Source: Kofleriaceae bacterium
Lineage (GTDB): Bacteria > Myxococcota_A > Polyangia > Haliangiales > Haliangiaceae
Direction of reading: 5' to 3'
Assembly (NCBI GenBank): GCA_024762925.1
Contig: JANTGM010000004.1
Location: 62,001 to 126,000, forward strand
Length of the DNA stretch: 64,000 nucleotides
Both the position numbers and the translations under genes were made by a program. This document shows, in pieces, positions 37,057-47,732 of the stretch (positions are counted from its first letter, which is position 1; the number at the start of each line of letters is the position of its first letter). The notes beneath the pieces are model-generated. The model made no database searches. It saw only the letters and a list, made by a program, of their open reading frames with translations, and had not been told where the DNA came from.

Positions 37057-37930
37057 CAGAGATCACAACAACAGTGGCTGTTGCGCCGTGCCAGTTTGCA
37101 GCCCCTGTTTGCAGTGCAGCGACAGGCACAGCTGCTGACGTTTCTGCAACCACGCCGCACTCGCGGAATAGGAATCGAACAGCACTCTCGATGCTCTCCT
37201 CACTAACGGTCACGATGCCCAGGCCGTGCTTTGCGACAATGGCATAGGTACGCTCACATACGGCGCCTTCACAACCCTCCGCGATGGTGTGCAATTTCTC
37301 ATACTCACAGAGCGCGTGCCCAAGAGCAACGGAATCGTGCATTGCGCAGTTGTTGATTGGCTGGCACCCTACAACAGAAACGCCCATTGGCGACAACTCG
37401 TTCGCCAAGCCAGCGATGAGACCTCCGCCTCCCACCGGCACCAGAACTCTTCCGAGCGTCTCTCCGAGCGATTGCATCTGCTCGCGAATCTCGGCGCCGA
37501 GGCTGCCACCGTTTCCCCGAATCACGGCATCGTCATCGAAAGCCGAGACGAAGGTCGCGCCACGCTCCGCAGCAAGCTTACGGGCCAACGCTTCGGAAGT
37601 ATCGTAATCCTTGCCTTGCACCAAGAGCTCCGCACCCAAGGCGAGCATCCGCTGTTGCTTGTTTTGTGGAGTGCGCTCGGGCACTACCACGGTGACGAAA
37701 ACACCGGCCTCTCCACCCGCAAGCGCCAGTCCAGCGCCGTGATTGCCAGCAGAAGCGGTAACAACGCCAGCGTTGCGGGCCTCTGTGCCAAGTGCTGCGA
37801 TGGCTTCGGTAGCACCGCGCAATTTGAAACTCCCGGTTCGCTGTAACGACTCGAGCTTGAGGAAGACGGTGGCACCAGGTGCTTCAAGCGCAGGGCAGCG
37901 CACCAGGGGCGTCTTACGGACGCTGCTCAC
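36998..37930 (-). CDS. PLP-dependent threonine/serine dehydratase-like protein
   Basis: The product has 310 residues, a fold-type II PLP enzyme: the PLP lysine lies in SFKLRGA (K36), and the phosphate loop is VPVGGGGLIAGL. This fits catabolic threonine ammonia-lyase or serine racemase/dehydratase without the regulatory ACT domains of biosynthetic IlvA. The likely reaction is threonine to 2-oxobutanoate plus ammonia, cytoplasmic. The start overlaps the rimO stop by 4 bases. The substrate cannot be fixed from sequence. Confidence 0.88.
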   Translation of the reverse strand: MSSVRKTPLVRCPALEAPGATVFLKLESLQRTGSFKLRGATEAIAALGTEARNAGVVTASAGNHGAGLALAGGEAGVFVTVVVPERTPQNKQQRMLALGAELLVQGKDYDTSEALARKLAAERGATFVSAFDDDAVIRGNGGSLGAEIREQMQSLGETLGRVLVPVGGGGLIAGLANELSPMGVSVVGCQPINNCAMHDSVALGHALCEYEKLHTIAEGCEGAVCERTYAIVAKHGLGIVTVSEESIESAVRFLFRECGVVAETSAAVPVAALQTGAANWHGATATVVVISGGNIDEAALDTLLAEGDFS

Positions 37931-39282
37931 TGCGCCGGGCCTGCGACAACTTCAGCGGCCAAGTCGTAGTCAGAACCATCGGTGACCGTTGCCTGAACCA
38001 GGTCGCCGATCTGCGCCTCGCAGTTTGAGAGATAGACGCTGCCGTCAATTTCTGGAGCCTGCCCATACCAGCGTCCTTGCATCAGATACTCACTCTCATC
38101 TGAAATGCCCTCGACAAGTACTTCAAGCGAATGGCCGACGCGAGCCTCGTTCTTAGCGCGCGAGACCTGGCGCTGCAGTTCCATGAGCTCGGCTTGGCGC
38201 TCAAGCTTGACCTCGTCGGGTACCCGGTGAGGCAACATTGCTGCCGTTGTGCCCTCCTCCGTCGAAAACGGAAAAGCGCCGACGTGATCGAGCTTGGCTT
38301 CCGTGATGAACTCGCAGAGCTTGGCAAAACTCTCATCGTCTTCGCCGGGGTGGCCAACGATGAACGTAGAGCGCAGCACAACGTCGTCGATTCGCGAACG
38401 CAGCCGTTCCAGCAGCTCGTAGGTAATCCGCGCGCTGTGACCGCGTCGCATCTTCTTGAGCATCTTCTCGTCAATATGCTGCAGCGGCACGTCAATGTAC
38501 TTTGCCACAACACTTGAGTTAGCGATCACGTCGATGAGCTCGTCGGTGAACGCGCTCGGGTAGGTGTAGTGGAGCCGCACCCAGTGCAAGCCATCGATGC
38601 CCTCCAGAGCTGCAAGCAATTGGGCAAGGGTTGGCTTGTCGGAAAGGTCGACGCCATACCGGGTGAGGTCCTGCGCGATGAGATTGATTTCACGTGTGCC
38701 GGCCGCGCACAGGTCCTGTACTTCTTTGACCACCGAAGCAATGGTGCGTGAGCGCTGGGGCCCTCGCAGCTTCGGGATGATGCAAAACGCACAAGGACGG
38801 TCGCAGCCCTCCGCGATCTTGACATAGGCGGTGTGGCGGTAGCCCGTTATCACGCGCGGCGTATTGTGATCGTAGATGTATGCGGGAGTTTCCGAGACGC
38901 CAAGGATGGGCAGCTCTTTACGAGCACCCTTGTGATTAAGAACTTTTATGACCTCTCGAAAGTCACCCGAGCCGAACATGTGATCGATCTCGGGAATCTC
39001 TTTTGCGAGCTCTTCCGGGTAGCGCTGGCTCAGGCACCCTGTGACGACAAGCTCCTCGCAGCGACCCTCGCCTTTGTGGCCTGCCATCTCCAAAATGGTC
39101 TCGATGCTCTCTTCCTTGGCCGATTCGATGAAGCCGCAAGTGTTTACGACGATGACATCCGCCTCACCGGGCTCGGACACAATGCGGTGCCCTGCCGCGC
39201 CGGCGTCACCGAGCATGACCTCGCTGTCGACCCGGTTCTTGGGACAACCGAGGGACACGACATAGACCGACTTGCTACTCAT
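37927..39282 (-). CDS. rimO: Ribosomal protein S12 methylthiotransferase RimO
   Basis: The product has 451 residues, starting at ATG 39280-39282 (MSSKSVYVVSLGCPKNRVDS); a start 9 codons earlier is open but unlike the family. Cys13, Cys49 and Cys83 hold the auxiliary iron-sulfur cluster. The radical SAM motif is CDRPCAFC (Cys160, 164, 167). A TRAM domain closes the protein. The pattern PRVITGYRHTAYVKIAEGC marks RimO rather than MiaB. It adds methylthio to Asp in S12. It sits between the MFS gene and the dehydratase gene. Confidence 0.95.
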   Translation of the reverse strand: MSSKSVYVVSLGCPKNRVDSEVMLGDAGAAGHRIVSEPGEADVIVVNTCGFIESAKEESIETILEMAGHKGEGRCEELVVTGCLSQRYPEELAKEIPEIDHMFGSGDFREVIKVLNHKGARKELPILGVSETPAYIYDHNTPRVITGYRHTAYVKIAEGCDRPCAFCIIPKLRGPQRSRTIASVVKEVQDLCAAGTREINLIAQDLTRYGVDLSDKPTLAQLLAALEGIDGLHWVRLHYTYPSAFTDELIDVIANSSVVAKYIDVPLQHIDEKMLKKMRRGHSARITYELLERLRSRIDDVVLRSTFIVGHPGEDDESFAKLCEFITEAKLDHVGAFPFSTEEGTTAAMLPHRVPDEVKLERQAELMELQRQVSRAKNEARVGHSLEVLVEGISDESEYLMQGRWYGQAPEIDGSVYLSNCEAQIGDLVQATVTDGSDYDLAAEVVAGPAQ

Positions 39283-39315
39283 CGGCGCGCAGTCTGCCCC
39301 TCGTGCCAAAGGCTG

Positions 39316-40569
39316 TCAATCGCTCTCTCGAGCCATGCGAACGCAGATGGGCTGCGGACAACCTCTCCCTTCGCGGCCATGCAGGTGAGCGTGTCTGGCA
39401 GTCAGAGCAAGAAGCACAATGCCAACAAAGCCAATACCGCCACATAGATACATGGCAGAAGAGGCTCCATAATAGCCCGCTATGGGTGAGAAGACGCCCA
39501 TGGCAATACGACGGGCGATGCTCTCCATCGATAGCATCGTCGCGCGTCTTGCGGAATCGGTAATCTCCCGATTGAGGAGGGGCTTAACGAGCGGTGAGTA
39601 GAGACCATTGGCCACGGCCTGCACAGCCAACAGCCCCAGCGCCCACTGGCCCGAAATCTTATTGAGCAAGACGAAGCTAAGAGCGAGCGTCCCAAGCAGG
39701 CCCCACACCAGTGTTCTCTCACCGAAGCGCCGCCGCAAGATGTGCCCTTTGTGAGCAACAAACGTCGCGACCAGGTAGACCCCCGCGAAGACAAACCCTG
39801 TCTCAGCGATCCCAAATCCTCGGGCATCGAGGTATGGCTGGTAGAGGTAGATGGTTGCGCGCAGCAGCACAAAAACGACGGCAGAAAACGCGATAGCCCA
39901 CAGAAGACGTTTGCTTCGCACAAGCTCGCGAGTCGCTTCGCCCATGTGTTGAAAGTACGAGCGCATTTCGACAGAGACCGAGGTTTCTTTGGCAACCGCT
40001 TGCACGCGTCCACAGCTCGCGGCAGATTCGTCGCGCATCGATAACGCGATAAGAAATGCACCAAGCCCAACGATGGCTGTGGCGACATAGGGAAGCGCGA
40101 GATCAATTTCGCCAAGCAAACCACCTGCGGCAAATGCGCCGGCGCTACCAGCCTGGTGCCAGGCGGAGGCCGTGCCCTCTCGCCGCGCATACTCATGGCT
40201 TCGGCCGTTGGCGGCAAGCATATCGTAGAGGTACGCGGAGTCAGCCCCAGAACAGAGCGACATCGAAACGGCCGCGAGAGTCTCGGCGATGGCAAAGACC
40301 AAGAGGTTGTGCGCAAAGTACGCGACGATGCCGGAGGCAACGAGCGCCAGTGAGCCAGCCATCATGCTCTGGCGGCGGCCAATCCGGTCGGCAAGCGCAC
40401 CGGTGGGGATTTCCACCACAATGACGATCACGCTGTAAAGCGCGCTCAGCAGCATGATTTCGTCAAAACCAAGGCCACGCTCGGTCATGAAACGCCAGAA
40501 GATTGGCATCCACAAGTAGGAGGTTGCCAACAGGCGAAAGTAGTAGAAGAGCCGTAAATCGCGTGCCAC
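39316..40569 (-). CDS. MFS transporter
   Basis: The product has 417 residues starting at GTG 40567-40569, with about 12 membrane helices. The loop 2-3 motif EIPTGALADRIGRRQSMM is the major-facilitator signature, and SGADSAYLYDMLAA follows in helix 4, as in a subgroup of uncharacterised exporters. The substrate is unknown. It starts 5 bases after the HEAT gene, so the two are surely co-transcribed, and it ends 33 bases before rimO. Confidence 0.9.
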   Translation of the reverse strand: MARDLRLFYYFRLLATSYLWMPIFWRFMTERGLGFDEIMLLSALYSVIVIVVEIPTGALADRIGRRQSMMAGSLALVASGIVAYFAHNLLVFAIAETLAAVSMSLCSGADSAYLYDMLAANGRSHEYARREGTASAWHQAGSAGAFAAGGLLGEIDLALPYVATAIVGLGAFLIALSMRDESAASCGRVQAVAKETSVSVEMRSYFQHMGEATRELVRSKRLLWAIAFSAVVFVLLRATIYLYQPYLDARGFGIAETGFVFAGVYLVATFVAHKGHILRRRFGERTLVWGLLGTLALSFVLLNKISGQWALGLLAVQAVANGLYSPLVKPLLNREITDSARRATMLSMESIARRIAMGVFSPIAGYYGASSAMYLCGGIGFVGIVLLALTARHAHLHGREGRGCPQPICVRMARESD

Positions 40570-40574
40570 GTGTA

Positions 40575-41840
40575 CTACTGATCCAATACTAAGATGGCTT
40601 CCGCTGCGGCGATGCGGCCTTCAGCGTTTCCTTTTAGCAACGCAGAAGCCAGGGGAGTGACATCGACGTCCTCCTTCATGGACAGGAGGCTCTCTGCAGC
40701 GCCAACGCGAAGTGCTGTTAGCATAAGTTGTCGTTTGAGCGCAGGTATCGCGGCTCGATCCCCGAGCTTCGCGAGAGCGCCAGCTGCATCCACCACGTAT
40801 TTGCCCTCTCCGAGTATTTCTAAGAGATACTCGCGGGCGAGAGCATCCCCGGCAAACCCCAGCCCCACCGCCGAGCGCATCCGATTCTCATCAGAAGATT
40901 TCGGACTCTCAAATGTGTCGCGCAAGACCTGAAGGCCTTTTTCATCGCCGAGGAGGGCTAGTACAGAGGCCGCACCCAAGCGGTGGGTTCGCACACCGAG
41001 CATTTGATGCAGTGCTTTGCGCCCCGAATCGTCACCAAGCTGAACAAGCCGTCGAGACGCATCGATCCGCACATCCCGTCGTCGACTCTCCAGCTCGCGC
41101 ACCAAGTATTCGCGACCAGAAGTATCTCCAGCGAGTGCGAGTCCATACGCAATATCGATTCGGCTGAGATCACTTGTCTCGGTCTTGAGCAGCTCGGAGA
41201 GGGTGGCAACAGCCCCTTGGTGTTTGATGCGAGCCAGCGCCATGCCAGCAAGTCTCTTGAACCGCGGTGAGCCATCATTGAGTTGACCTTCGAGTTCTGC
41301 TATCGAGAGGGCGCGCAATTCCTCGGCACTTGGTGGTTTTTCCTGCTCCACATCCACAGCCTGGGCATCAGAGGACAATTCGGGAACAACCACGCTTGGC
41401 ACCGAGTCCTGCCCAGCACTCACGCTGCTTGGCGACGAGGGCGACACCGACTGAACAACCGCGATGGCCATGCCGCCAACCATGATTGCGCCGGAAGCGA
41501 GCAGGACCCGCGTTCGCAGACTCGAGGAGATGCCGCGGGATGCCTCAGCGCGAAGAAGAGTGGGACTTTGAGGATCGGGTGGGAGTGGCGTTGGTACGGG
41601 GCCTGCGTCTGCAGCTTTGCTGGGCTTTGGGCTTTCGTCCTCGGCAGCCTCGGCCTTTGCCTCGATGGCCTTGCCCCTAGCTGGCGTTGGCTCTGGTGGC
41701 GTTGGCTCTGGTGGTTTGGCCGTTGGTGCGTCCGCGCAAGCCGCAGAGCAATAGGTCACAACCTTTGCGCCACGAATGCGGGCAACGGGCGCATGCGTCG
41801 GATCGAGAGCAGTATGACAACTTGGGCAGACGGGTGGCAC
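40575..41840 (-). CDS. Zinc-ribbon, membrane-anchored HEAT-repeat protein
   Basis: The product has 421 residues with a GTG start. Cys5, Cys8, Cys31 and Cys35 (CPSC, YCSAAC) form a short zinc-ribbon or TRASH-like finger. A Pro/Glu-rich linker is followed by one membrane helix (about 109-131, LLASGAIMVGGMAIAVVQSV), so the N-terminus is cytoplasmic and the rest periplasmic. From about 185 to 421, six to seven HEAT-like repeats (for example KRLAGMALARIKHQGAVATL) form an alpha-solenoid for protein contacts. Finger plus linker plus HEAT is a familiar myxobacterial arrangement, function unknown. It lies 21 bases from the FAM20-like gene. Confidence 0.78.
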   Translation of the reverse strand: MPPVCPSCHTALDPTHAPVARIRGAKVVTYCSAACADAPTAKPPEPTPPEPTPARGKAIEAKAEAAEDESPKPSKAADAGPVPTPLPPDPQSPTLLRAEASRGISSSLRTRVLLASGAIMVGGMAIAVVQSVSPSSPSSVSAGQDSVPSVVVPELSSDAQAVDVEQEKPPSAEELRALSIAELEGQLNDGSPRFKRLAGMALARIKHQGAVATLSELLKTETSDLSRIDIAYGLALAGDTSGREYLVRELESRRRDVRIDASRRLVQLGDDSGRKALHQMLGVRTHRLGAASVLALLGDEKGLQVLRDTFESPKSSDENRMRSAVGLGFAGDALAREYLLEILGEGKYVVDAAGALAKLGDRAAIPALKRQLMLTALRVGAAESLLSMKEDVDVTPLASALLKGNAEGRIAAAEAILVLDQ

Positions 41841-41861: not shown

Positions 41862-42953
41862 TTAGGGAAAGGCGAGAACAGCGTCTTCGCCATGCTGGCG
41901 AATCAAGGAGTCAATGTATGCAAGAGCCCGATCGCGACGCGACAGCAGGGCTTTGATTTCGGGGTCGCGCAGAAAAAAGTCGAACGGTTCAACATCGCGC
42001 TCAAGAGCTTGGCGAACTTCACTCTCTTCCAAGGTGCGCAGCCGTGCCACCAGAGAACGCGAAAAGGTCTGACAACGCTCAAAGTAGGTGCGGGCCTTTG
42101 GATGTCCATCAGGCCGGTCGCCAAACGAGAGCGTGTTGTCCATGAAGTAGAGCACCCGCTGATCCTCGCTCACTCGAGCATTGCCCCCTGACCATCGGTC
42201 GGGATTGCTGATAATGAAGTCAAAGAGCACCATGTTGCTGATTTGCTGAATGAGTGCCAAGTCTCGGTCGGGAATCTTTGCACCAACGGCGAGATAACGC
42301 TTCCACGAGACGATTCCTTCCATGGAATCGATTTCGAAACCATCGACTCTTCCGCGCTGGATTACCGGGATCCACCAGGACAACTCTCCAGTTACCCAGC
42401 CGTCTTTCTGAATCATCTCGGCCTTGAGGCGAGGGCGAAAGAAACGACTGTCGGGATGTAGAGCACCGAGAATTTCTGAGAGCTGAAACCGACGGCCAAT
42501 TGCGGGCGGAACCGAGCTAAGTCCGAGTAGCCGGTTGATTCGAAACGCAACAACCTCCCGCCTAGGCACTGACTGCCAGTTGGTCTGCCTCGGCTTGAAC
42601 GCTGCACGAGCACCGTTCTCAAAATCGATTCGCAGCGAGATTGAGGAGCCGCCTTTGTTGAACTTGACCTCAGTGATTGGCGAATCGCGCAGTGGCGCCA
42701 GCAGGACATCATCGGCCACCCCCAAGAACATGGTTGGCGTTTCAACCGGAACCTCAAGCTCGGTGTGCTTCGTGATTGGCGTCGCTGGACGAACACGCAC
42801 AGGTGCCGGCGAGGGCAACTCGGTCGCTGCTTGGGCTTCTTGTGCAAGGCCCTCTCGCACCACTTCGCTCGCCCACAATCCCCCCACGACGAGACCGGAG
42901 GCCACGGTTCCCCCCATCACGAGTTCGAGAGCAATGCAGGTACGAAGTCGCAC
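41862..42953 (-). CDS. Exported FAM20/HipA-superfamily kinase-like protein
   Basis: The product has 363 residues. Residues 8-30 are a hydrophobic signal or anchor (LELVMGGTVASGLVVGGLWA), so the rest is periplasmic. Kinase-like motifs appear in order: AAFKP (Lys120, ATP-binding), REVVAFRINRLLGL (Glu133 candidate), LFDFIISNPDRW (Asp252, catalytic), Asn258, and YFMDNTLSFG (Asp272, metal-binding, the DFG equivalent). This order fits the FAM20C-type atypical secretory kinases, related to PI3K/HipA folds. The usual Cys pairs of eukaryotic FAM20 are not evident. If active it would phosphorylate envelope proteins or glycans. It lies 72 bases downstream of the TlpA-like gene. Confidence 0.7.
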   Translation of the reverse strand: MRLRTCIALELVMGGTVASGLVVGGLWASEVVREGLAQEAQAATELPSPAPVRVRPATPITKHTELEVPVETPTMFLGVADDVLLAPLRDSPITEVKFNKGGSSISLRIDFENGARAAFKPRQTNWQSVPRREVVAFRINRLLGLSSVPPAIGRRFQLSEILGALHPDSRFFRPRLKAEMIQKDGWVTGELSWWIPVIQRGRVDGFEIDSMEGIVSWKRYLAVGAKIPDRDLALIQQISNMVLFDFIISNPDRWSGGNARVSEDQRVLYFMDNTLSFGDRPDGHPKARTYFERCQTFSRSLVARLRTLEESEVRQALERDVEPFDFFLRDPEIKALLSRRDRALAYIDSLIRQHGEDAVLAFP

Positions 42954-43025: not shown

Positions 43026-43586
43026 TCATAGAAGCGCTTCAATGGCTTTCTCCAGGTCACGCTTCAGCTGTGCGGTGGTTCCCATGCCGCGATGCACCCA
43101 ACGCACGGTTCCCTCTCGACCAATGATCAACATGTGGGGAATGGTGTTGACTTTGTAGAGCGATGAGGCCACGCCTGTATCGCTCACAAGTTCGACCGAT
43201 GGTGCCAGCCGATTCGCCATGTTCCGGGCCTTCTGCGCAGCTCGCGTGCCCTCGGTGTTTATCGAAATGACACGAATGCCCTGGTCTGCGTAGGTTTGTG
43301 CGATTCCATTGAGTACGGGCATCGAAGCCTTGCAGGGGCCGCACCAGGTCGCCCAAAAGTCGAGCACCAGAATGTCACCCTGGTGTTCTGAAAGCGTGAA
43401 ATCGGGCCCTAGCTCGCCGCTTGCCGCAACCGTGGGAATCGAAAAATCCGGCGCAGGCTCGCCCTCATGAACAGGGCGAAGGCTCTGGCAATCGCGCACG
43501 GCAGCACCACCATTGAGTAGCAGCAGGGCTCCAAGAATCCCAGCAACTGCCCAGCCTGCGCGAATCGAGCGTTTCACTTCAGTCAT
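43026..43586 (-). CDS. TlpA/ResA-like thioredoxin-fold protein
   Basis: The product has 186 residues, starting at ATG 43584-43586 (MTEVKRSIRAGWAVAGIL); the ORF extends 70 codons upstream without any family likeness. Residues 11-31 are a signal or membrane anchor. The thioredoxin fold carries DFWATWCGPCK (Cys82, Cys85) and cis-Pro in NTIPHMLIIG. It is expected to reduce or oxidise disulfides in the periplasm, as in cytochrome c assembly or redox control. It overlaps the preceding membrane-protein gene by 8 bases. Confidence 0.92.
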   Translation of the reverse strand: MTEVKRSIRAGWAVAGILGALLLLNGGAAVRDCQSLRPVHEGEPAPDFSIPTVAASGELGPDFTLSEHQGDILVLDFWATWCGPCKASMPVLNGIAQTYADQGIRVISINTEGTRAAQKARNMANRLAPSVELVSDTGVASSLYKVNTIPHMLIIGREGTVRWVHRGMGTTAQLKRDLEKAIEALL

Positions 43587-44133
43587 TTGTGGTGTCTTTC
43601 GTGTCCAAAGCCCGACTGCGAGTTTGCATGAAGGCGAGCACCATGACCCCAGCCGACCAAGAGTAGCCCACAACCACACTCGCGGTGTGCAGGTCGAAAC
43701 CCGTGTAGGGCAGCACAGCGTGCGCCAAAGCATGCACCAACTCGATGACAACCAGAGGCGTGAGTGCCACACACACGAGATCAAAGTCGCTGGCAATCCT
43801 GCGGCGCCGGCCTGCGAGAACTGTCAAGACAACACTGCTCACCAAGAGCAAGATGATCGGCATGATGAGGTGTTCCCGAGCCCCAACCATCAGCACGGTA
43901 AGAGCTCCCCGAAAGTCGCCATCGCCCACCATCCAGCCCGCCATCGCAAAGAGCTCAGTCTTGAGGACGACCACTGCCAAGAGCAGAAGTACCGTGATGT
44001 CGCTCGAAGAGCGCCCCTGCCCTTCTGGACTGTCGGAGGCTGCAAGTGCCAAGCGAGGCGCGGCCAATGCAGCGCCAATTCGCACGAGCCAGCGACCTAG
44101 CGCTTTTTCACTTTCTACCGCCACGACGCACAT
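43579..44133 (-). CDS. Small integral membrane protein, unknown
   Basis: The product has 184 residues with about four hydrophobic helices (near 50-70, 88-108, 122-145, 148-168), for example VLLLLAVVVLKTELFAMAGW and REHLIMPIILLLVSSVVLTV. A polar C-terminus (LDTKDTTND) follows. No family was recognised, although the layout resembles Yip1-type proteins. It overlaps the gene on each side (26 bases with 44108-45184 and 8 with the TlpA-like gene), so translational coupling is likely. The first ATG is used; a GTG three codons downstream is an alternative. Confidence 0.65.
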   Translation of the reverse strand: MCVVAVESEKALGRWLVRIGAALAAPRLALAASDSPEGQGRSSSDITVLLLLAVVVLKTELFAMAGWMVGDGDFRGALTVLMVGAREHLIMPIILLLVSSVVLTVLAGRRRRIASDFDLVCVALTPLVVIELVHALAHAVLPYTGFDLHTASVVVGYSWSAGVMVLAFMQTRSRALDTKDTTND

Positions 44134-45184
44134 TCGCTAACTTGCGAGCCTGCGCAGAGAGGGCGCTGGGGATGCTTCGCGATCGAGCCATGGCGTTGAG
44201 GTCTTTGGCCCGCAGATGGGGAAGGAGTCGCATGGCGGCTGGTAGGGGGCATTTCGGGTTGTTCACCAGGGCAAGTTTGATGTGGTAGAGCTTCGTCCAC
44301 TCTTTTCGGCTAGCGATATACGCTATTACGTCCTCCGACAGCGCAGTGTTACTGGCATATCCCGCTGCTTCGTTTTCTTTTACCGAAGGCGACTTAATCA
44401 CCGCCAATGCGATCATTTTCTTAGGATCTTTAATGAGTTGCGCGCGTTCAAACTTGTTGCCGATGGTCGCTATCCGGATCTTTTCCGAGATGCTCTTGTC
44501 CCGCAACAGCACCTCTGCCTCCTCCTCGCTCTCGGGCTCCTTCTCAGTTTCCGTCTGGAGCGTGAGAAATTCCTCATCCGCTGTCCGCTCTTCCGCCGGG
44601 GCCTCCGCTGGGCGCTCCTTCTCGGTTTGCAGAACACCACGCGCCACTTCATCCCAGGCGGCAATGCCCGGAACCTTGAGCTTGTGGCGAACCGCAAGCT
44701 CTACGACTCGATCCACTGTCGACATCCGCGCGTGCGCATTGGTGTAGATCGCCGCGATAATTTCTGTGCAGCGGAGAATGCGCTGTTGGTTTTCGGCGAT
44801 TAGGTCAACCTGCTTCTCAGTGGCGGTGCCTGCAAGCTTGGCAATCGTTGTGTCATCACTGCTCTGGTTGAGGATGACTGTGTCAACGAGCTCAGCGCGA
44901 CACTCAGCCTTTGTCACAAAGTAGTCAATCACTCGCGCATCGAGGCGGGCATCGGAAAGCGCCCCAACCAAGATGTTCTGGGGCAGAGACTTGGCAGAGT
45001 TCTGAGCGGACGCCTGAATCTTGGCATCGGGCACTACACTCAGTTGGTAGAGCACCGAGACAAGATCCACAGGGTTGGCAAGCGGTGCCATGCCGCGTGC
45101 CGCCATCATCTTACTGGGACCGGAGGATAGTGCACGTTGGGCGTCTGAACTCAAAGTCGCCTCATCGAGTGGGCTGTGCTGCAT
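44108..45184 (-). CDS. Conserved-type helical protein, unknown
   Basis: The product has 358 residues, with no signal peptide or membrane helix, so probably cytoplasmic. It is alpha-helical, with a strongly acidic centre (about 200-230, PAEERTADEEFLTLQTETEK) between two helical-repeat-like parts. ERAQLIKDPKKMIALAVIKS followed by an ALVNNPKCPLPAAMRLLPHL segment looks like leucine-rich variant or HEAT-like repeats. No catalytic motif is seen. It follows coaX by 11 bases. I do not recognise its function. Confidence 0.75.
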   Translation of the reverse strand: MQHSPLDEATLSSDAQRALSSGPSKMMAARGMAPLANPVDLVSVLYQLSVVPDAKIQASAQNSAKSLPQNILVGALSDARLDARVIDYFVTKAECRAELVDTVILNQSSDDTTIAKLAGTATEKQVDLIAENQQRILRCTEIIAAIYTNAHARMSTVDRVVELAVRHKLKVPGIAAWDEVARGVLQTEKERPAEAPAEERTADEEFLTLQTETEKEPESEEEAEVLLRDKSISEKIRIATIGNKFERAQLIKDPKKMIALAVIKSPSVKENEAAGYASNTALSEDVIAYIASRKEWTKLYHIKLALVNNPKCPLPAAMRLLPHLRAKDLNAMARSRSIPSALSAQARKLANVRRGGRK

Positions 45185-45195
45185 GGTGCCTCTAC

Positions 45196-45996
45196 CTACC
45201 TATTGTCCATCTTGGTGTTTCGCTCAAAAAGAAGTTTCAGTCCCCGCAACGTTAGCATCCGGTCGTAGGAATCGATGCAATTGCTTTGCTTCGTGATTAG
45301 CCCAGCCAGACCACCGGTGGCAATGCATGCGCAAGGAAAGCCTACCTCCTCGCGGATTTGTGTGACCATCGAGTCAACCATGCCGCAGTAGCCGTAGAAC
45401 AGGCCACTCTGCATGCTCGCTTCTGTGTTGCGCCCAACAACGCTCTTGGGTCGCGCAATTTGCACTTTGGGCAGTTTCGATGCGCGCTCGTATAGTGCCT
45501 GCGAACTCACTTCGACCCCTGGAGCGATGGCTCCGCCCAAGTACTCACCTTTGGGCGTGACAACATCCCACGTTGTGGCTGTGCCAAAGTCCACGACGAC
45601 GCATCCAGAACCGACTGTCTCGTATGCCGCAACAGCATTCACAATTCGATCCGCGCCGACTTCTCGGGGATTCTCGTAGAGAATTGGCATTCCGGTTTTG
45701 AGTCCAGGACCGACAACCAGCAGCTCAAGGCTAAGGTGGCGCTGGCAAAACTTGCGAAGGCCAAAGAGTGTTGGCGGCACCACCGATGAAGCAATGGCGG
45801 ATGCAATCTCCGACATTTCAAGGCCCTCGAGCTCCATCAGCTGCCGCAAGACGATGGCGTACTCATCTGCGGTGCGATTTCCATTGGTCTCAACCCGCCA
45901 TTGCGCTCGCAGGGCGTCTTCGCTGGCGTTGCCGATTTCGTACAGGCCGAGCACGGTGTTGGTGTTGCCAACGTCAATGACAAGGAGCAATTTCAT
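45196..45996 (-). CDS. coaX: Type III pantothenate kinase CoaX
   Basis: The product has 266 residues, starting at ATG 45994-45996 (MKLLLVIDVGNTNTVLGLY), the family start; the ORF's 51 additional upstream codons are not homologous. The phosphate-binding motif DVGNTNT, the GADRIVNAVAAYE and VVDFGTATTWDVV motifs, and GAIAPGV identify the ASKHA-fold CoaX. It phosphorylates pantothenate as the first step to coenzyme A. It is the first gene of the ten-gene minus-strand run ending at 35347. Confidence 0.95.
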   Translation of the reverse strand: MKLLLVIDVGNTNTVLGLYEIGNASEDALRAQWRVETNGNRTADEYAIVLRQLMELEGLEMSEIASAIASSVVPPTLFGLRKFCQRHLSLELLVVGPGLKTGMPILYENPREVGADRIVNAVAAYETVGSGCVVVDFGTATTWDVVTPKGEYLGGAIAPGVEVSSQALYERASKLPKVQIARPKSVVGRNTEASMQSGLFYGYCGMVDSMVTQIREEVGFPCACIATGGLAGLITKQSNCIDSYDRMLTLRGLKLLFERNTKMDNR

Positions 45997-46121
45997 AGGT
46001 GCAGGCCATGGTAACGCACTTCCTGGGCCTCTCTGCCAGAAGAAGCCAGCATCTCGATTGGGAAAAAGCGTTGACCATCGCATGTCACGCGCACGGCAAC
46101 ACATAGTAACGTTGTGCACCC

Positions 46122-47732
46122 GTGGCGAAGCTATCGATTCAAACCGCATGGGTTACACCTATGCTGCTTCTCGGCAGCGTGGCAGTCGCACTAACCGGCG
46201 GGGTCTACACACTCGATCACTTTGTCACGAGCGGAGACGGCAGCCCGGTTTCGCACTACTTGAACTTTAGCCCGGAGGCTGTGTCCAACTCCATTGGTGT
46301 TCTCTCGAGCATCATCGCTGCAGTGCTCGGCATCATCCTGACGGTCGTTTCCATTGTTGTCCAACTCTCGGCAACTCGATACACCCCCGCCGTCACCGAG
46401 ATGTTCTTTCGAGACCGCACAAACATGCTGGTCATGGGCCTCTATGTTGTCGGTTGTGTCATGGGCTTTTGGATCGCCTTTGGAGTCAACGATGACTGGG
46501 TCCCCAGGATTTCTCTCATTGCGATGCTCAGCGTGGCAACTCTGGGCTTCCTACTCATGGCGCCCTACTTTGCCTACGTCTTTCGGCTGCTCTCGCCCCA
46601 CTCGATCGTCTCGCGCATTGAAGCAACGGCGCGACGAGCTGCCATTGGCGATGGTGGTGAGTTGCCGTCGGGAAACACCGAAGAGCGTCAACAGCTGGTA
46701 TTGGCGATGAGCGAACAACTCTCAGACATCGCAATCAACTCAATTTCCCAGAAGGACAAGATCATCGCGATCGCCTGCGTCGATGCGCTCAGGGACATGA
46801 GCACTACCTATTTGGCGGAGAAGAAAAACCTCGATGACGATTGGTTCAAGCTGAGCCGCAGTGTTCGCCACAACCCCGACTTTGGCTCGATGGACAAAGA
46901 TGCGGTGATTGACCTTGAGTCTCATCGAACCTGGGTGGAGTTCAAGGTGCTTCGCCAATACCAGAGCATCTACACCGAAGCCCTTGGTTCGATGCGACAC
47001 CTAAACTATGTGGTGGCAATCAACACCAGGCTCATCGCTGAAAAGGCGCTGCACACAGGCAACACCGAGGCGCTCGCACTCACAATCAAGTTCTTCAACA
47101 CCTACCTGCGAGCCACGCTCAATAACAACGATGTTCGAACGGCCTACACAATTCTCAACCAGTATCGATTGGTCGCCGAGTCGACCCTGCGCGCGGGTGA
47201 AGGGGCAACGGCCCTCGCAATTGTCGAGCACCTCAAGTACTACGCGCATCTGAGCTACAACAAGAAGCTTGGCTTTGTGACAGAAACCGTCGCATACGAT
47301 GTGGGCATGATTTGCGAAGTCGCTCACGAGATTGGCAGCGACTCCGAATCCGACATTCTCAAGATTCTTCTCGAAGTCGATCCCACCACCTCTGAGGGCG
47401 ATGTCCAAGAGGCAAGCCTTCGCGGTGTGCGCAAAGCACAACTCAAGCTCGCAACCTACTACCTAGAATCCGACTCAGAAGCCCTTGCCAAGCTCGTATG
47501 GGAAGACATGCGCAACGAAAACGTCGATCGCATGCGCTCAATTCGCGACGAACTGCTCTCGATTGAGTCCAAAGAATTCTGGGAAGTATCCGATCGTGGA
47601 GGCAATTTCGACTATCTGGAGCCGGGACGGAAAGAGATGCTCAAGGTCTTTTTTAGCTGGTTCCGGCAGGTATCTGGCGCCATGAAGACGGTAAGCTTGG
47701 ATGCCCCGGCTGAGGGCGGCGGAACGTCCTAA
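46122..47732 (+). CDS. DUF2254 family membrane protein
   Basis: The product has 536 residues from a GTG start. Four membrane helices (about 12-30, 58-82, 104-122, 130-152) precede a long cytoplasmic helical part. The segment SIIAAVLGIILTVVSIVVQL followed by SATRYTPAVTEMFFRDR is the DUF2254 hallmark. Function is unknown. It is divergent from coaX; the 125-base gap probably carries both promoters, but no clean pair of boxes was found. The downstream lipoprotein gene starts 32 bases after its stop. Confidence 0.82.
   Translation: MAKLSIQTAWVTPMLLLGSVAVALTGGVYTLDHFVTSGDGSPVSHYLNFSPEAVSNSIGVLSSIIAAVLGIILTVVSIVVQLSATRYTPAVTEMFFRDRTNMLVMGLYVVGCVMGFWIAFGVNDDWVPRISLIAMLSVATLGFLLMAPYFAYVFRLLSPHSIVSRIEATARRAAIGDGGELPSGNTEERQQLVLAMSEQLSDIAINSISQKDKIIAIACVDALRDMSTTYLAEKKNLDDDWFKLSRSVRHNPDFGSMDKDAVIDLESHRTWVEFKVLRQYQSIYTEALGSMRHLNYVVAINTRLIAEKALHTGNTEALALTIKFFNTYLRATLNNNDVRTAYTILNQYRLVAESTLRAGEGATALAIVEHLKYYAHLSYNKKLGFVTETVAYDVGMICEVAHEIGSDSESDILKILLEVDPTTSEGDVQEASLRGVRKAQLKLATYYLESDSEALAKLVWEDMRNENVDRMRSIRDELLSIESKEFWEVSDRGGNFDYLEPGRKEMLKVFFSWFRQVSGAMKTVSLDAPAEGGGTS

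Follow-up and report, generated by a model that had tools for sequence, protein, structure and literature searches.

The window, a stretch of 64,000 nucleotides from a Kofleriaceae bacterium, carries a run of genes on one strand with short gaps or overlaps between them: a coaX-like gene, orf358, a small membrane protein gene, a TlpA/ResA-like thioredoxin gene, a FAM20-related kinase gene (KIN), a HEAT gene, an MFS transporter gene, and a rimO-like gene (Table 1). The names coaX and rimO are our assumption. The reading frame given for KIN in the preliminary description was exact, with only the strand missing from it, and its placement between a TlpA-like gene and an anchored HEAT gene is right, the former lying upstream and the latter downstream in equal orientation.

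Table 1. Genes and features of the KIN locus in window coordinates. Close relatives are those with a profile score of 385 or more; their synteny counts take loci with enough flank and are uncorrected for relatedness. In the residue counts, proteins sharing identical C-terminal 200 residues were entered once.
Feature	Position	Strand	Basis or remark
rimO-like gene	37927..39309	minus	22/43 close relatives
MFS transporter	39316..40569	minus	downstream, 26/49 close relatives
HEAT neighbour: zinc-ribbon-like CxxC..CxxxC N-terminus, TM, HEAT repeats	40575..41840	minus	downstream of KIN in 25/50 close relatives
KIN, FAM20-related kinase gene	41862..42953	minus	363 aa, GTG start
Kinase domain, residues 75-363	41865..42731	minus	high-confidence part of AF2 model; VIA-align range 74-363 on FAM20
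Asp272 codon, MDN, metal-binding Asp	42138..42140	minus	profile alignment to FAM20C; 108/110 relatives
Asn258 codon, putative metal-binding Asn	42180..42182	minus	96/110 relatives
Asp252 codon, NxDR catalytic Asp	42198..42200	minus	profile alignment to FAM20C; 109/110 relatives
Glu133 codon, helix-C Glu, aligned to NAE Glu of FAM20C	42555..42557	minus	104/110 relatives
Lys120 codon, FKP motif, ATP-binding Lys	42594..42596	minus	profile alignment to FAM20C; 105/110 relatives
Hydrophobic anchor, ~residues 11-29	42867..42923	minus	Kyte-Doolittle scan; AF2 helix 2-42
TlpA/ResA-like thioredoxin (WCGPC)	43026..43586	minus	likely start 43586, overlaps stop of gene upstream; upstream of KIN in 42/53
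Small hydrophobic membrane protein (TM184)	43579..44133	minus	upstream, 39/52 close relatives
orf358	44108..45184	minus	no Pfam match; conserved beside coaX and TlpA, 35/48 close relatives
coaX-like gene	45196..46149	minus	upstream, 36/46 close relatives

KIN occurs as a single copy in its own genome, and its GTG start and MRL-start are conserved in nearly all close relatives. The signal anchor claimed earlier was recovered as an N-terminal hydrophobic segment in the Kyte-Doolittle scan. The N-terminus MRLxxCIxxE (42924-42953) is strongly conserved, with a near-invariant Glu10 where the anchor helix begins. A search of 56 related genomes recovered the gene in 46, its own genome counted, and it is present in 52 of the 188 genomes sampled across the phylum; the Pfam model PF06702 matched none of 14 control genomes. 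The nearest named relatives of the window are Kofleriaceae MAGs, at 66 and 59% identity. A scan of contigs for exact conserved peptides returned 71 loci, each in a MAG whose title gives Myxococcota or one of its subgroups, "Deltaproteobacteria", or "Proteobacteria". Some genomes carry multiple paralogues of KIN, with matches on six contigs in one (G118) and on five in another (G187).

The preliminary observation on KIN is confirmed and lies far beyond chance. In a phmmer search of the PDB with KIN alone, FAM20C was matched at E=2.5e-8, FAM20A at 1.9e-5, and the glycosaminoglycan xylosylkinase chain 5xom at 0.0025. The Pfam Fam20C model matched KIN at E=5.5e-6 with 26.6 bits, against a gathering score of 26.8; in the multi-genome search KIN scored 27.7 bits and the gathering score was reached in 7 of 19 genomes. 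A profile of 50 relatives (alignment A1, 50 of 56 proteins, leaving out L077, L080, L081, L083, L084, and L085) matched FAM20C at 1.2e-30, FAM20A at 1.9e-23, C. elegans Fam20 at 6e-20, and hydra Fam20 at 4.6e-17, with PI4K2 as the first match outside FAM20 (E 0.063). The match to FAM20C spans both lobes, with i-E values of 5.3e-12 for the N-lobe and 6.3e-15 for the C-lobe. Among the 50 members, 42 were matched by Pfam Fam20C and 45 by the NCBIfam model SCO1664.

The AlphaFold2 model of KIN was built from alignment A3, which holds 68 sequences (the window KIN and 67 proteins, leaving out L134 and the fragment L155), and reached a mean pLDDT of 91.7 and a pTM of 0.79. It contains the FAM20-type two-lobe kinase fold. 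Foldseek placed FAM20 entries at ranks 1-28 (E 7.9e-15 to 1.6e-10) and PI4KII at rank 29 (3.2e-6). VIA-align gave hydra Fam20 as the top match with Z 24.3, an rmsd of 3.4, and 276 aligned residues, followed by further FAM20 structures (FAM20C at Z ~23-24, FAM20A at 22.8), and matches outside FAM20 included PI4K2 at Z ~17, H. pylori CtkA at 15.3, and HipA at ~10-11. The label "FAM20/HipA-like" in the preliminary description stands on its FAM20 side (Z 23-24), while HipA is clearly more distant (Z 10-11) and several features that define FAM20 are absent.

The residue numbers proposed earlier are correct in KIN. In the profile alignment, Lys120, Glu133, Asp252, and Asp272 fall on the kinase residues of FAM20C, and from the whole-domain superposition taken together with this alignment the catalytic residues are predicted to be co-located. 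A lack of a kinase core, or key residues lying apart, would have spoken against the kinase reading; the structure comparison instead gave a FAM20-type kinase. All five residues, including Asn258, are invariant in the 68-sequence alignment. The ATP-site Lys, the catalytic Asp, and the metal Asp of FAM20 are all kept in the KIN family, and the complete K-E-D-N-D set is carried by 93 of 110 profile-matched relatives. As judged from this conservation, KIN is therefore probably an active kinase.

Seven of the relatives (L161-L165, L170, and L171), from genomes that we take to be Bradymonad-type, are 700-1270 aa long with a C-terminal kinase domain, and several have a zinc-ribbon-like N-terminus. 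Some losses of N258 in these long proteins may be alignment effects of a local insertion. Clearly degenerate catalytic sets were found in L164 (E-A-D-G-A) and L171 (K-E-E-S-H), whose genomes also encode the largely intact relatives L163 and L170 (K-E-D-E-D in the mapping), respectively. This combination of a degenerate with an intact protein recalls FAM20A and FAM20C.

For synteny, genes were called by codon scoring, which retained the kinase at 97 of 105 loci, and then assigned by profile. The search for partner genes suggested in the preliminary description gave, among close relatives, TlpA in 42/53 and HEAT in 25/50, counted as in Table 1. In the profile-score band of 300-385, HEAT was found at 6 of 14 loci and TlpA at 1 of 16, and among distant relatives with scores <300 both were at 0 of 26. 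Since partner linkage falls with profile score, KIN is the common element and the TlpA and HEAT partners vary by clade. Homologues of the HEAT protein showed the CxxC...CxxxC motif in 17 of 30 cases as called, some gene starts being truncated; most have a TM segment, and Cys after this segment is mostly absent. The combination of zinc motif, TM segment, and Cys-poor remainder fits a cytoplasmic zinc ribbon with periplasmic HEAT repeats, and the protein is a possible link between cytoplasm and periplasm. Scans for promoters and terminators were uninformative, with 4 promoter-like sequences against 2.2 expected and 8 terminator-like sequences against 8.6 expected.

With the kinase fold in place, the substrate class is one point on which readings diverge. 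Instead of proteins, KIN could phosphorylate glycans or lipids, as FAM20B or PI4K2 does. This reading concerns the substrate and lies within our preferred explanation; we hold it to be possible, though short of even odds. The top VIA-align match, hydra Fam20, is a sugar kinase tied within 1 Z unit with FAM20C; of the animal forms, FAM20B is said to be the older (PMC5865150, PMC7948968), and the dimer loop of FAM20C is missing in KIN. Against this, 106 of 110 relatives have Trp, Phe, or Tyr in place of the xylose-contacting His of the FAM20B DRH motif, and none of the genes that recur beside KIN was recognised as one for glycan synthesis.

A kinase fold may also be kept for another reaction, such as AMPylation, polyglutamylation, or transfer from another donor such as polyphosphate. 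AMPylation or polyglutamylation is described for further kinase-fold proteins (work cited in PMC7948968), and the special acidic residue and the substrate loop of FAM20 are missing in KIN. The supply of ATP in the periplasm is disputed as well. The earlier statement that the periplasm lacks ATP agrees with a description of ATP as naturally absent there (PMC5038940), but another source cites ATP measured in the periplasm of E. coli after uptake, with an export route given as unknown (PMC7432876). KIN nevertheless keeps the canonical K-E pair, the catalytic Asp, the Asn, and the metal Asp, as ordinary phosphotransfer expects, and we regard a different chemistry as improbable.

A strict signal rule fitted 61 of 90 KIN proteins and 34 of 41 TlpA proteins, which served as the positive case, compared to 3/29 for coaX, 1/30 for rimO, 0/11 for thrDH, and 0/37 for orf358. 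Some of the 29 of 90 KIN proteins that failed it did so because charged residues such as Glu10 lie in the window of the rule or because the gene start is missing. The Cys content of the kinase domain is 0.28%, while coaX, rimO, thrDH, and orf358 have 0.90, 1.78, 1.13, and 0.87%, respectively (N-termini and Cys were counted with the same removal of identical C-termini as the residues). In distant relatives, the N-terminus is lipobox-like or resembles a signal peptide. In long relatives, a zinc-ribbon-like motif, a hydrophobic segment, and the kinase follow each other in one chain; all four zinc-ribbon Pfam matches in them are below cut-off, and weak TPR matches lie ahead of the kinase in 2 of 6 scanned long proteins. 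These single chains look like a fused version of the HEAT-KIN pair.

Signal-like N-termini, low Cys, and the lipobox-like and zinc-ribbon-TM relatives support export, and with good support from these sequence features we infer that the kinase domain of KIN faces the periplasm. The export claimed in the preliminary description is thereby supported, and conserved synteny together with the export signs backs its envelope operon. An inverted anchor, with the kinase domain in the cytoplasm using ordinary ATP, would draw on three points. The charge bias at the anchor (positive-inside) of the MRL-anchored clade favours N-in in 26 of 55 alone and is non-discriminating; Glu10 is nearly invariant (alignment A2), which is odd in a plain export signal; and SCO1664-type genes are linked to mycothiol biosynthesis genes in actinobacteria (PMC4255298), which suggests a cytoplasmic role of that family. 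Low Cys and signal-like N-termini relative to the comparison genes, relatives with lipobox-like or signal-peptide-like N-termini, and fusions that put the kinase opposite the zinc ribbon all argue the other way, and the inverted arrangement appears improbable.

That KIN is a HipA-like toxin kinase, as a weak match of the HipA_2 Pfam model in 7 of 50 members might suggest, was rejected as highly improbable by fold ranking (Z 10-11 vs 23-24 for FAM20) and gene context, given the export signals of the family and its conserved housekeeping-like operon. A defence system was likewise rejected, as PADLOC gave only weak matches for KIN (E 0.029 and 0.049) and a generic HEAT match for its neighbour. 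So was a plasmid-borne gene, since tblastn against 72,556 plasmid records found nothing.

The explanation that we prefer, and hold to be moderately probable as a whole, is that KIN is a competent FAM20-related kinase of the periplasm that phosphorylates envelope hydroxyls. The FAM20-type fold, the conserved catalytic residues, and the conserved operon are computed observations. A single N-terminal helix would anchor KIN in the inner membrane on its outer side, and the periplasmic kinase domain would phosphorylate a hydroxyl on an envelope protein or glycan. The donor would most likely be ATP, used with a divalent metal, since the conserved site suggests ATP as the simplest choice. The HEAT neighbour, which presumably has its zinc ribbon in the cytoplasm and, across a single TM helix, its HEAT repeats in the periplasm, would most likely act as scaffold, regulator, or substrate, and TlpA may keep thiols in order within the compartment of KIN. 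Against this explanation stand the non-discriminating charge bias, the KIN proteins that fail the signal rule, the clade-limited linkage of TlpA and HEAT, and the scarce or disputed ATP of the periplasm. In addition, the NCBIfam model SCO1664 and Pfam Fam20C match with similar strength, although SCO1664 does not reach its cut-off and covers just the C-lobe of the window protein.

More speculatively, the Myxococcota may possess a Gram-negative system of extracytoplasmic phosphorylation, in which an exported FAM20-related kinase and a transmembrane zinc-ribbon/HEAT partner, or a zinc ribbon/TPR fusion, relay a cytoplasmic signal to periplasmic substrates; animal secretory kinases may then share an exported bacterial ancestor with the KIN branch. 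If topology and activity are as proposed, a conserved kinase would sit at the ATP-poor side of the Gram-negative inner membrane, making both regulated phosphorylation from periplasmic ATP and the origin of animal FAM20 secretory kinases testable questions. One survey treats FAM20, where it discusses it, as a eukaryote- or Metazoa-specific cluster (PMC9758233). FAM20-like bacterial kinases are already known (CotH, PMC7821199, PMC12189002), and in full-text searches of open-access papers none was recognised as describing the KIN branch.

Among known systems, HipA and HipT have the atypical bacterial kinase fold in common with KIN at Z ~10-11. Type II PI4-kinases form the second-best fold group (Z ~17), with a sequence E of 0.063. 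The SCO1664 family (NCBIfam TIGR03843) resembles KIN in the C-lobe, while the N-lobe of the window protein is unmatched; its score for KIN is 26 bits (20.4 in the genome search), far below the cut-off of 172.4. The CotH spore-coat kinase, likewise bacterial, is described as a distant relative of Fam20C that acts in the spore coat, with its ATP source called an unanswered question (PMC7821199), and reportedly lacks a putative DFG motif (PMC12189002), whereas KIN keeps the metal Asp. The CotH Pfam model was not among the 12 families matching the 50 KIN members at E<=0.1, and no CotH structure was among the VIA-align matches listed for the KIN model.

With animal FAM20 (FAM20A/B/C; PDB 5yh3, 5xoo, and 4kqb), a family that phosphorylates S-x-E or Gal-Xyl, KIN shares the fold (Z 23-24), the Lys of the N-lobe FKP motif, the helix-C Glu, the NxDR Asp, and the metal Asp, and probably also a location on the secretory side. 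FAM20 has four conserved disulfides, an extra acidic residue that is Glu213 in C. elegans and Asp152 in hydra, and, in FAM20C, a dimer/substrate loop with the motif D/N-F/H-F-Y-F-S/T-D (PMC5865150). The disulfides are absent from the KIN family and cannot form there because the kinase domain carries 0-3 Cys, with zero in 41 of 90 proteins. The Kb3-Ka3 loop of FAM20C, with its FYF motif and extra acidic residue, corresponds to a 12-residue gap in the KIN profile alignment, and Glu133 aligns with the other, canonical Glu of FAM20 and not with the equivalent of Glu213/Asp152. The DRH motif of FAM20 is DR(W/F/Y) in the KIN family, and unlike animal FAM20, KIN belongs to a bacterial operon that also includes genes for TlpA and a HEAT protein. 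Without the four disulfides, the extra acidic residue, and the dimer loop, KIN is therefore no member of FAM20 but a separate branch that is FAM20-like by fold and likely chemistry.
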